A stretch of 35,710 nucleotides of DNA from a bacterium (GTDB lineage: Bacteria > Margulisbacteria > Marinamargulisbacteria > GCA-2716485 > GCA-002719695), in contig PBBX01000003.1 in the NCBI GenBank assembly GCA_002716725.1, forward strand, positions 5,036-40,745, read 5' to 3'. Position 1 is the stretch's first letter; each line of letters opens with the position of its first letter. Made by a program: the position numbers and the translations under genes. Of this stretch, positions 6,611-9,901 are shown piece after piece. The notes under the pieces are model-generated. The model did no database searches. It was not told the DNA's origin and saw only the letters and a list, made by a program, of their open reading frames with translations.

Positions 6611-7312
6611 TTAACTCTCATTCCATTTAATTTTTAAGGGTTCAATAAATATACTAGGACTTTGTGTTGAACACAATGCTATTGATTTAAAATAGGTTCC
6701 CTTGGATTTATTTGGTTTAATTTTATTTATAAAATCATAAATATAATAAAAATTTTCCAATAAATCCTCTTCTGAAAAAGATGTATTTCCAATCATTAGA
6801 TGTATGATGCCATTTTTATCATTGCGATATTCAAATTTTCCTGATTTAAATTCTTTTACAGCTTTTGCAATATCCTGGGTTACTGTTCCTAGCTTTGGAT
6901 TTGGCATTAATCCTTTTGAACCAAGTACTTTTCCTAATCGACCTATTTTTTTCATTAAAGGGGGAGTCGCTATAATGATATCAAAATCAAACCAACCTGA
7001 TTGAATTTTCTCTATGTAATCATCACTACCGACATAATCGGCACCATTATCATTTGCAATAGTCGCCTGCTCGCCCTCTGCTATAACCAAGATTTTCTTT
7101 TCTTTTCCAATGCCCTTAGGTAAACTAACCGTTCCTCGAAGTTGCTGATCTGCATGCTTTGGATCAATCCCTAAATTGAAATGAACTTCGATCGTTTCAT
7201 TAAATTTAGCAAATGAAACTTGCTTCAATAAAGACAGCGCTTCATTTGGAGAATAAAACTTGCTTTTTTCAATTAATTTATGTTTTTCTTTATATACTTT
7301 TGACTGTTTCAT
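6611..7312 (-). CDS. rplA: Large ribosomal subunit protein uL1
   Basis: L1 stalk protein of the 50S subunit, involved in release of E-site tRNA and, in many bacteria, a translational repressor of its own rplK-rplA mRNA. 233 residues, normal for the family. The family signature around [15 protein letters not shown] is present at about residues 132-146. The start ATG overlaps the rplK stop by four bases (ATGA), indicating translational coupling. The C-terminal tail (KIKWNES) is slightly divergent but the domain is complete. Confidence 0.96.
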
Positions 7313-7749
7313 TTTTGTACCGTTACTCCCATACTTCTAGCACTTCCTTCAATAATTCTACATGCCATTTCTATTGTATTAGCATTTAAATCTTCCAATT
7401 TTTCTTTTGCAATTGCTTCTACTTGTTCTTTTCTTAATTTCCCAACAAAATGAGTATTCGGCGTTGGAGAGCCTGATTTTAACTTTAATTCTTTTTTAAT
7501 CAATTCACTTACAGGAGGTGTCTTTAATACAAAAATAAATGTACGATCGACATAAACATAAATTTCGACAGGAATCAGAAAACCAGCCTTATCTTTTGTT
7601 TGATCATTGTAAGCCTTACAAAAATCCATAATATTAACCCCATGTTGACCTAACGCAGGCCCAACCGGAGGTGCTGGAGTTGCTTTTCCCGCAGGAATTT
7701 GCAATTTAATAACCCCCATGACTTCTTTTTTATGCTTTAACTTTCCCAT
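7309..7749 (-). CDS. rplK: Large ribosomal subunit protein uL11
   Basis: Binds the GTPase-associated region of 23S rRNA, where it contacts elongation factors and, in organisms that have it, the RelA stringent factor. 146 residues, close to the usual 141. The N-terminal domain shows the conserved [19 protein letters not shown] stretch, and the C-terminal rRNA-binding domain ends with GSARSMGV. An AGGTGA site precedes the ATG. It starts nine bases after nusG and shares an ATGA overlap with rplA. Confidence 0.97.
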
Positions 7750-7758
7750 TTATATCAC

Positions 7759-8610
7759 CTAAACTGTTTTTTCTACTTGCTCAAAATCCAATTCTACTGG
7801 CGTTTCTCTACCAAATATGGATATTTTAGCTTTAATATTACCTTTTAATGAATTGATCTCAGAAATAGAACCGGTATAGCCTCTAAATGGTCCATCAACC
7901 ACCTTGATTACTTCTCCAACCTCAAAATCTACATCAATCTCTTTACTTGTATCTCCCACTTTTCTTAATACCTTTAAGATCTCATCTTCTACAACCGGAG
8001 ATGGTTTATTACCAATCCCAACAAACTTAGCAATACCTGGAATTTGACGTAACTCATATGCCAATTCATCCTCAATATTCATTTGAATAAAAACATAACC
8101 CGGAAAAATTTTTGTAACTTTTTCAAGACGCTTATTATTTTTTAATTCAACCGTCTGCTGAGTTGGAACTAATACCCTAAAAAGCTTTCCATCATATTTT
8201 CCAGCATCAATGACTTGTTGCACTCTTGTCTCAACACGTTTTTCATAGTTTGATAGTGTTTGAACTATATACCAATTAAGATTGTTGGCGATACTTTCAT
8301 TACCTGGTTTTTTTTCAACGTCTGGTAACACATCATCATTTGTTTCACTATTTTCTTCGGATTCATCCGTATCGTTTACTATATCTCCCATTACATCTTC
8401 ATTTATCGTTTCTACAGATTCCTTACTATCCATATTATTCTTATTTTCTTCCTTTTCACTTTTCTCTATTTTTTGATTGTCTATATGTTTATTATCTTTT
8501 TCTTGCTGATTATCTCCTAAATTACTTCCCTCTTGAACGTGTGCATTTTTGTTACCATCATGCTGCGATTGTTCATTTGAGTTTGTAATATCAGTACTTG
8601 TATTTGACAC
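7759..8610 (-). CDS. nusG: Transcription termination/antitermination protein NusG with long acidic N-terminal extension
   Basis: NusG binds the RNA polymerase clamp through its NGN domain and links it to Rho or the ribosome through its KOW domain. The NGN domain begins at about residue 112 (NWYIVQTLSNYEKR) and the KOW domain occupies about 229-283 (VIKVVDGPFRGYTGSI). The first 110 residues are a low-complexity segment rich in Asn, Asp, Glu, Gln, Lys and Ser, with almost no hydrophobic residues and so probably disordered. That makes the protein 283 residues against about 175-190 usually. A later start is possible, but the frame stays open with ordinary codons and the next ATG is at residue 60. 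It lies between secE and rplK, as in most bacteria. Confidence 0.95.
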   Translation of the reverse strand: MSNTSTDITNSNEQSQHDGNKNAHVQEGSNLGDNQQEKDNKHIDNQKIEKSEKEENKNNMDSKESVETINEDVMGDIVNDTDESEENSETNDDVLPDVEKKPGNESIANNLNWYIVQTLSNYEKRVETRVQQVIDAGKYDGKLFRVLVPTQQTVELKNNKRLEKVTKIFPGYVFIQMNIEDELAYELRQIPGIAKFVGIGNKPSPVVEDEILKVLRKVGDTSKEIDVDFEVGEVIKVVDGPFRGYTGSISEINSLKGNIKAKISIFGRETPVELDFEQVEKTV

Positions 8611-8632
8611 TTAATTTATTCCTTTATTTATT

Positions 8633-8860
8633 CTAAGCTTCGCCACGCAAGACATAGAACAGCTTTGATAAAACTAAATCTAAACCACTTACATATGATG
8701 TTAAAACAACAACTAATGCAAGAATTAAGATTGTAGATTTTATCAGTGTATTGCGATTTGGCCAAGTGACCTTTTTTAATTCAATAGATGGGTTTGTTGA
8801 AAAACTAGGTTTTCTTGTTGACTTTTTAACTTGTGGTATTTCTTTTTTTGCTATAGCCAT
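8633..8860 (-). CDS. secE: Preprotein translocase subunit SecE
   Basis: Small clamp subunit of the SecYEG channel. From the ATG at 8860 it has 75 residues. A polar, basic N-terminus is followed by the family's amphipathic segment with VTWPNR at 31-36, then one transmembrane helix at about 42-62. The frame extends upstream to 8917, but that would run into the tRNA-Trp gene, so I reject the longer start. GGAAAA lies seven bases before the chosen ATG. The single-helix form is the usual one outside gammaproteobacteria. It sits between tRNA-Trp and nusG, a widely conserved order. Confidence 0.94.
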   Translation of the reverse strand: MAIAKKEIPQVKKSTRKPSFSTNPSIELKKVTWPNRNTLIKSTILILALVVVLTSYVSGLDLVLSKLFYVLRGEA

Positions 8861-8887
8861 TATGTTTTCCAATGCTTTAATAAATTT

Positions 8888-8964
8888 TGGCAGGCCCGGT
8901 CGGATTCGAACCGACAACCCTCGGTTTTGGAGACCGATGCTCTACCAATTAGAGCTACGAGCCT
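8888..8964 (-). tRNA. trnW: tRNA-Trp (anticodon CCA)
   Basis: A full cloverleaf of 77 nt including an encoded CCA end. The acceptor stem is AGGCTCG with CGGGCCT, the D arm GCTC/GAGC, the anticodon stem TCGGT/ACCGA around the loop CTCCAAA (anticodon CCA at 8928-8930), and the T arm GTCGG-TTCGAAT-CCGAC. The discriminator is G, as expected for bacterial tRNA-Trp. It is the first gene of the leftward transcript and lies 27 bases upstream of the secE start. Confidence 0.98.
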
Positions 8965-8991
8965 ATGTTAAGCTCAGTTTAAAGAATTGAA

Positions 8992-9019
8992 TTTATCATA
9001 GTCATTATTTAAAAGTCAA
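8992..9019 (-). promoter_or_regulatory. Possible promoter for tRNA-Trp-secE-nusG-rpl-rpo block
   Basis: On the minus strand TTGACT (9014-9019) is separated by 16 bases from GATAAA (8992-8997). Transcription would begin about 20 bases before the tRNA. The -10 match is only moderate; TATGAT nearby (8995-9000) has too short a spacing. Confidence 0.4.
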
Positions 9020-9031
9020 ACTTTAATTTTA

Positions 9032-9060
9032 TTGACATTTCTAAATTAATTATGTATTTT
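9032..9060 (+). promoter_or_regulatory. Probable promoter of the rplU operon
   Basis: A perfect TTGACA (9032-9037) is followed after 17 bases by TATTTT (9055-9060), giving a leader of roughly 80 bases before rplU. It is divergent from the tRNA-Trp promoter; the two -35 boxes lie only 12 bases apart. Confidence 0.5.
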
Positions 9061-9145
9061 CATTTGAATCATTAAAAATTTAACATATTTAACACTTAAA
9101 ATATTGCTAAGATTATTAGAATAATGATAGTTGGAGGTTTTAAAG

Positions 9146-9622
9146 TTGTCTGAAAAAAGTGAAGAGTTTGTAATTATCGAAACCGGTGGTAAGCAATATA
9201 TTTTGGAAAAAGATACGGTTGTTAGTATAGAAAAGTTAACTGATCAAAAAAGCAAAACGATAACATTTGATAATGTATTGCTTCATTCCAAAAATGGAAC
9301 GTTATCTGTTGGAACGCCCTATTTAAATATTGCTGTTAAAGCTGAGATTCTTTCCAATGAAACCGATAAAAAAATTCGTGTTTTTAAATTCAAACCAAAA
9401 ACAGGATACAAAAAGAAACAAGGTCACAGACAAACTTATACAACTATTAAAGTTATATCTATTGGGGCATCTAAATCATCTGATTCTAAACAAACAGCTG
9501 AAACAAAACCTAGTAAGGTTAGTGCAAAAACACAGCATTCCGATTCAGCTAAAAAATCAAAACCAAGCGTTTCGACAAAAACAGCTGCTAGCAAAGGTAA
9601 AACTAGCTCTAAAAAAACATAA
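9146..9622 (+). CDS. rplU: Large ribosomal subunit protein bL21 with basic C-terminal extension
   Basis: 50S protein that packs against 23S rRNA and L20. The L21 domain spans about residues 8-105 (FVIIETGGKQYILE; KKKQGHRQTYTTIKV). It is followed by about 52 residues made almost only of Ser, Lys, Thr and Ala, unlike the usual protein of about 103 residues. I chose the TTG at 9146 because GGAGG lies eight bases before it. An upstream in-frame TTG at 9131 would make the ribosome binding site part of the coding region. It heads the rplU-rpmA-obgE-proB operon. Confidence 0.93.
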   Translation: MSEKSEEFVIIETGGKQYILEKDTVVSIEKLTDQKSKTITFDNVLLHSKNGTLSVGTPYLNIAVKAEILSNETDKKIRVFKFKPKTGYKKKQGHRQTYTTIKVISIGASKSSDSKQTAETKPSKVSAKTQHSDSAKKSKPSVSTKTAASKGKTSSKKT

Positions 9623-9646
9623 TTATTTTAAATTTAGGAGTTTAAA

Positions 9647-9901
9647 ATGGCACATAAGAAAGGAAAAGGAAGTTCAAAAAATGGAAGAGATAGTGAATCC
9701 AAACGATTGGGTGTTAAAAAATTTGGTGGTGAAGTTGTAAAGGCTGGCAATATTATTATTCGTCAACGTGGGCTTAAGTTTAAGGCTGGTATCAATGTAG
9801 GTATTGGGACTGATTATACTTTATTTTCGAAAGCTGACGGTACGGTTGAATATAAAACGATTCAAGATAACAAAAAACTGGTACACGTTATTACTCAATG
9901 A
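9647..9901 (+). CDS. rpmA: Large ribosomal subunit protein bL27
   Basis: 50S protein whose N-terminal tail reaches the peptidyl-transferase centre. 84 residues. It begins directly with [16 protein letters not shown], so it lacks the cleaved N-terminal peptide found in Firmicutes and their relatives. The rest is canonical ([17 protein letters not shown]). A TAGGAG site precedes the ATG. Its stop overlaps the obgE start by four bases (ATGA). The rplU-rpmA-obgE order is one of the most conserved in bacteria. Confidence 0.97.

Follow-up and report, generated by a model that had tools for sequence, protein, structure and literature searches.

Bacterial NusG is described as an NGN domain followed by a KOW domain, some members having extra domains inserted into NGN (PMC6391919). 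In E. coli, the N-terminal domain of NusG is placed at the upstream fork junction (PMC9695777). Eukaryotic Spt5, whose Spt5N region carries a conserved histone-binding motif, is presented as unique in that an acidic and mostly unstructured tail directly precedes its NGN (PMC8886531), and two reviews count an acidic N-terminus among the traits of eukaryotic Spt5 (PMC6391919, PMC7819879). A disordered polyanion of another build belongs to the RNA polymerase (RNAP) of Firmicutes: the acidic C-terminal region of the delta subunit, with a net charge of -47, can act at RNAP (PMC7749165). In the open-access papers searched we found no account of acidic N-terminal tails on bacterial NusG, which is not proof of absence; the accessible portions of PMC7819879, PMC13289920, PMC12288462, PMC6391919, PMC9695777 and PMC12288461 mention none.

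Here we describe such a tail on the NusG encoded in a window of 35,710 nucleotides, the whole stretch of DNA that was analysed, and follow it through the phylum of the source genome and through other bacteria.

A NusG with ordinary domains and an acidic N-terminal tail

The gene order at the locus is tRNA-Trp, secE, nusG, rplK, rplA, rplJ, rplL and rpoB, with rplA named from its translation and not from a family scan. The nusG product (Table 1) matches TIGR00922 over residues 113-281 with 168.8 bits (cut-off 135.7), so that its full-length score lies above the curated cut-off of the housekeeping NusG family, and the RfaH, LoaP, UpxY and NusG_myco models all score below their own cut-offs. The Pfam NusG model is matched from residue 112 (75 bits, cut-off 22.2); the KOW motif, at 22.1 bits, falls slightly below the Pfam cut-off of 22.3. 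By phmmer, residues 111-281 align to the best solved NusG chain, and the invariant first tryptophan of NGN is residue 113. The genome itself, an 81%-complete assembly, contains a single NGN-family match, the one in the secE-nusG-rplK operon.

Like E. coli NusG, the protein combines NGN with one KOW, has the same operon neighbours and matches the family in full, here from residue 113. The difference lies upstream: by alignment range, the first NGN tryptophan of E. coli NusG (2K06, as identified in PMC7819879) follows about 8 residues, that of the window protein 112. An NGN at or near the N-terminus is usual for TIGR00922 NusG, without being a defining trait. Several KOW domains, as in Spt5, are not found here, and HARE-HTH, the family of the delta N-domain, is absent from the Pfam matches of the protein and from its genome. 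Around the locus, Rfam recognizes only the tRNA, and promoter and terminator scans of window positions 7000-9700 stay at chance level.

Table 1. Features of the nusG gene in the window.
Feature	Position	Strand	Description
nusG	7759..8610	-	283 aa, GTG start
KOW domain	7762..7920	-	KOW motif at residues 231-256, strands 234-281; ordinary
NGN domain	7969..8277	-	Pfam NusG, residues 112-214; ordinary
Acidic N-terminal tail, disordered by composition and model	8275..8610	-	residues 1-112, net charge -19
First 14 codons	8569..8610	-	conserved in same-genus relative, 12/14 residues identical
GTG start with Shine-Dalgarno sequence	8608..8624	-	AAGGA 9 nt upstream; in-frame TAA immediately before GTG

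The tail contains 20 Asn, 16 Glu, 13 Asp, 11 Ser, 10 Lys and 6 Gln, and is devoid of Phe, Trp, Tyr, Cys and Arg. A preliminary description had seen in it an acidic, disordered-looking extension of 110 residues made almost purely of these six amino acids; the extension is real, acidic and disordered, its length comes to 112 residues, and the statement on composition was too strong, as the six account for 76 of the 112 (68%). In a charge-hydropathy plot it lies in the disordered region. In an AlphaFold2 model built from 10 sequences, its ten-residue blocks have a pLDDT of 34-48, with no predicted secondary structure up to residue 107, while the NGN and KOW blocks are mostly at 76-92 and the linker between them is at 63; a model built from 4 sequences gave a poor NGN and is not the one reported. 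The NGN-KOW core is near neutral, with a net charge of -1. We are nearly certain of this anatomy, an acidic tail that is disordered by composition and by model and stands directly before NGN.

A 425-kb sample of the genome yields 294 ORF products with a length of at least 150 residues. Over the first 100 residues NusG has the third-lowest hydrophobic content of them all, and the first 112 residues reach a net charge of -19 or lower in 2 of the 294, NusG included. Long acidic tails as a genome-wide habit were considered and rejected: only 9 of 337 sampled products contain a 100-residue stretch with a hydrophobic content of 0.18 or less, and 4 of these 9 are clearly basic.

Such an extension could in principle be an artefact of a wrong start site, the true protein beginning at one of the ATGs inside the frame (residues 60 and 74) or near NGN. 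The match to the anti-Shine-Dalgarno sequence is longer at the GTG (AAGGA, 9 nt) than at either internal ATG. A same-genus relative, G002, retains the TAA-GTG together with AAGGA at 8 nt, and it has no ATG at the places aligned to Met60 and Met74. Of the first 14 codons, 8 are the same in both, 4 carry synonymous and 2 nonsynonymous changes (dN 0.10, dS 0.67, on few codons). In addition, every one of 5000 dinucleotide shuffles interrupts the frame. From the upstream TAA, the Shine-Dalgarno sequence, the conservation in G002 and the shuffles together, translation most likely starts at the GTG at 8610. The mis-called start, rejected on the Shine-Dalgarno comparison and on conservation in the relative, appears extremely improbable; a start near NGN, which the preliminary description had named as evidence against the extension, is likewise at odds with the comparison.

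Beyond these first codons, residues 15-111 diverge strongly between the window and G002 (dN 0.67, dS 0.98, dN/dS ~0.68); the corresponding values for NGN-KOW are dN 0.04 and dS 1.47, the latter near saturation. The middle of the tail thus appears to be under weak constraint as to its letters.

The NusG of G002 is the same as in NZWE01000031.1, the nearest named relative, which is deposited as 'Actinomycetota bacterium NAT535'; this label looks wrong, because the phylum group of that record has just 74 genomes, few for a phylum of the size of Actinomycetota; the group may be Margulisbacteria. A further minor point concerns the neighbouring gene: the listed secE frame (window 8633-8917, minus strand) begins at a TTG within the tRNA-Trp gene (8888-8964), and translation more probably begins at the ATG of MAIAKK, near position 8860.

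Acidic tails across the phylum and in other bacteria

The phylum sample comprised 74 genomes, of which 65 gave a NusG match and 64 a readable upstream region. Left aside were the 9 genomes with no match, for which incomplete assembly is a likely reason, and G049, cut by a contig end. Starts were assigned by two rules: the first takes the first ATG, or an earlier GTG or TTG with a better Shine-Dalgarno sequence, and the second takes the best Shine-Dalgarno sequence. Three automatic starts (L051, L054 and L056) had to be reset by hand, as they extended the frame into secE, which lies upstream.

All 64 readable NusGs carry a tail before NGN, from 16 to 144 residues long with a median of 55.5, and the tail of the window is the fifth longest. 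The net charge is negative in 63, both before and after the manual corrections, and stands at -5 or lower in 60. The second rule also gives a median of 55.5, with 61 of the 64 tails reaching at least 24 residues at a net charge of -3 or lower. The single exception is G067, with 16 residues and a net charge of +1, whose genus-mate G068 has 58 residues and a net charge of -12. Charge and hydropathy class 60 of the 61 phylum tails with at least 24 residues as disordered. The tail is therefore a feature of all readable NusGs in the phylum and not a quirk of one genome. The preliminary description had proposed to align the NusGs of relatives for conservation of charge or length, and had held that relatives lacking the extension would speak against it: charge is kept, length varies widely, and none of the 64 lacks a tail, that of G067 being the shortest.

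A search for linear motifs used 53 of the 64 tails, leaving out same-genus duplicates, and found no strong motif inside them. One clear peak, Pro/Ala/Gly-acid-basic-basic, occurs in 21 of the 53 against 2.2 expected and corresponds to the residues adjoining NGN; a weak hydrophobic-acidic-polar-polar pattern occurs in 19 against 7.8 expected. A linear motif conserved inside the tail throughout the phylum was accordingly discarded, the only strong peak being at the NGN junction and the others weak. On comparison, the tails drift in letters, length and Pro/Ala content and keep their charge and disorder.

Outside the phylum, we retrieved 117 genomes, with a requested completeness of at least 90%. 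A match was found in 114, and 100 were analysed, each from a different family; the 14 matches left out were low-scoring, partial or contained an internal stop, so that lineages with a divergent NusG are under-represented. Loci cut by contig ends were kept. Depending on the start rule, at most 15 residues precede NGN in 71-72 of the 100, and tails of at least 24 residues with a net charge of -3 or lower occur in 18-19 of them, compared with 61-63 of the 64 inside the phylum. Under the second rule, 25 tails outside the phylum have at least 24 residues: 22 are negative, 2 are at zero and 1 is positive, and 23 of the 25 are disordered by composition. That NusG usually begins directly with NGN, as had been stated, thus describes most of these genomes and leaves out the 18-19 with an acidic tail, whose number makes the tail a recurrent bacterial variant.

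Named examples, for which alone a search of a plasmid collection (73 records) was used, come from Actinomycetota. The annotated NusG of Tsukamurella tyrosinosolvens (276 aa) has an 81-residue tail with a net charge of -28, and chain 8e74_Z (238 aa), which we take to be M. tuberculosis NusG, is matched by NGN from residue 47, its tail being known from this match range alone. Nonomuraea was left uncounted, having no annotated nusG and an uncertain start; by rule, its tail would span 142 residues with a net charge of -22. The tail is not universal in Actinomycetota, where Collinsella aerofaciens has 4 residues before NGN. The Actinomycetota cases may allow tests in laboratory species.

Two metagenome-assembled genomes (PKEU01000072.1 and PKEX01000046.1), one of them labelled Clostridia, have acidic NusG tails of 31-32 residues. 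The last 19 residues of the two are almost identical, which may mark a linear motif or mean no more than that the two are close kin.

In being acidic, unstructured by composition and model, and placed directly before NGN, the tail of the window resembles Spt5N. As to differences, a histone-binding motif is described for Spt5N, and in the phylum the archaeal-type histone fold (PF00808) is matched in 0 of the 74 genomes, on which ground a link to archaeal-type histones was abandoned. Nothing points to a common origin of Spt5N and the phylum tails. The claim that an acidic tail before NGN is unique to eukaryotic Spt5, as worded in PMC8886531, is contradicted for the anatomy, not for histone binding. 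With the delta subunit of Firmicutes, the tail shares the character of a disordered polyanion on the transcription machinery; delta, however, is a separate subunit with its own fold, and its acidic part is C-terminal. HARE-HTH is nearly absent from the phylum (1 of 74 genomes), and a link to delta was dropped as well. Acidic tails in a phylum that gave no match to archaeal-type histones, and scattered elsewhere, suggest that the anatomy is separable from histone handling, and raise the question of what general role polyanions play on the upstream side of RNA polymerase.

Acidity, base composition and neighbouring proteins

Shuffling the bases of the window tail gives a mean net charge of +17, against -19 observed, and 0 of 500 shuffles are as low. 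Over the 64 phylum tails, the shuffled mean is +6.6 and the observed mean -13.5, with 63 of the tails significant at p<0.05. Under shuffles that keep the position-specific codon composition, 20 of the 64 are more acidic than their shuffles. Acidity as an artefact of base composition is therefore rejected, since base shuffles yield basic tails, with the reservation set by this codon-position result.

Local GC across the phylum tails ranges from 0.29 to 0.57. With kinship ignored, Pro+Ala content follows GC (rho 0.80), the acidic fraction (median 0.29) declines as GC rises (rho -0.64), and the negative net charge shrinks (rho 0.43). Because acidic fraction and net charge track GC, acidity is partly tied to base composition.

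At the same loci, the stretch that precedes the SecE domain (median length 15) is positive in 41 of 56 cases, zero in 7 and negative in 8. Before the L11 domain, where the median length is 4, the 30 cases divide into 15 positive, 12 zero and 3 negative. The sign of the charge is protein-specific. A tail of the opposite charge to that of NusG is found on L21 (window 9131-9622, plus strand), whose family match covers residues 14-111 of 163: about 50 C-terminal residues are basic and rich in Lys, Ser and Thr.

Possible roles of the tail

The NGN domain is positioned above the cleft, at the upstream fork, and the tail would therefore hang beside the upstream DNA. We tentatively favour a polyanionic tail kept by selection that, in this place, would reduce nonspecific contacts with nucleic acids, hold basic proteins, or both. 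It would act mainly through bulk charge rather than a fixed motif, repelling upstream DNA and nascent RNA or competing with them, which would spare NusG and the elongation complex some of their nonspecific contacts. The tail may also transiently hold basic proteins displaced from DNA. While we infer the mechanism, what the comparison of sequences supports is that the tail is probably translated, present throughout the phylum, negatively charged, disordered and loose in sequence. Against this reading speak the ninefold range of lengths, the short, slightly positive tail of G067, the partial tie of acidity to base composition, the codon-position shuffles and the near-neutral core, in which charge counts show no strongly basic surface to be masked. 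The nearly conserved first 14 residues and the weak hydrophobic-acidic-polar-polar pattern hint at something besides bulk charge. It is plausible that the tail affects contacts with DNA, the ribosome or Rho, as the preliminary description had suggested.

The main rival, to which we give a smaller though real chance, is a passive tail, tolerated on an abundant protein and acidic for solubility and for avoiding adhesion to nucleic acids, with no specific role in transcription. The high divergence of residues 15-111, the spread of lengths with one tail nearly lost, and the drop of acidity with rising GC would all agree with it. Its persistence in all 64 readable genomes of the phylum, even in assemblies as small as about 1 Mb, incomplete though these are, argues otherwise, the more so as most of the other bacteria sampled have at most 15 residues at this place and losses should be commoner if the tail were purely neutral. 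Rather unlikely, in our judgement, is a docking tail that recruits a basic partner to the elongation complex, be it a ribosomal protein, Rho or HU-type nucleoid proteins. Candidate partners exist: Rho is found in 65 of the 74 phylum genomes, which leaves room for Rho coupling, HU-family proteins occur in 17 of the 26 class genomes searched, with two in the genome itself, and the tail's first residues are kept within the genus. A docking site would sit uneasily with the lack of a strong motif inside the 53 tails searched, and Rho was not found in the 81%-complete assembly itself, though two same-genus genomes have it.

We consider very unlikely an intramolecular autoinhibition in which the tail, bending back onto NGN or KOW, would cover the surfaces that bind RNAP or S10/Rho. 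It is tethered directly to NGN, and tail and core net charges are correlated (rho -0.27, p 0.03); this correlation is weak and ignores kinship, the tail is without structure in the AlphaFold2 model, and the core is near neutral, so that charge counts reveal no strongly basic surface in need of masking. Finally, a bolder reading, which we hold to be doubtful, is that bacteria repeatedly, and this phylum universally, evolved a functional counterpart of Spt5N, the tail holding basic nucleoid proteins such as HU and giving them back to the DNA behind the polymerase. If this were true, eukaryotes could not be credited with inventing the transcription-coupled chaperoning of DNA-packaging proteins.

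The two HU-family matches of the genome (G000:C11:18707-18952 and G000:C8:37906-38169) score 53-54 bits, under most class relatives. They lie in longer frames of 121 and 134 residues, and G002 has two alike.

Other acidic or repetitive proteins were seen in the same genome. A FliH-like protein (L108, 17524-18789; 96.6 bits, cut-off 148.9) has a strongly acidic C-terminal tail. A second product (L113, 12019-12636) has a weak FliG match over its first 63 residues (24.7 bits, far under the cut-off), with an acidic stretch after it. The end of a third predicted protein (L112, 10849-12228) is made up of nearly perfect tandem repeats, each about 17 residues long, in which Gln, Glu and Thr are frequent.
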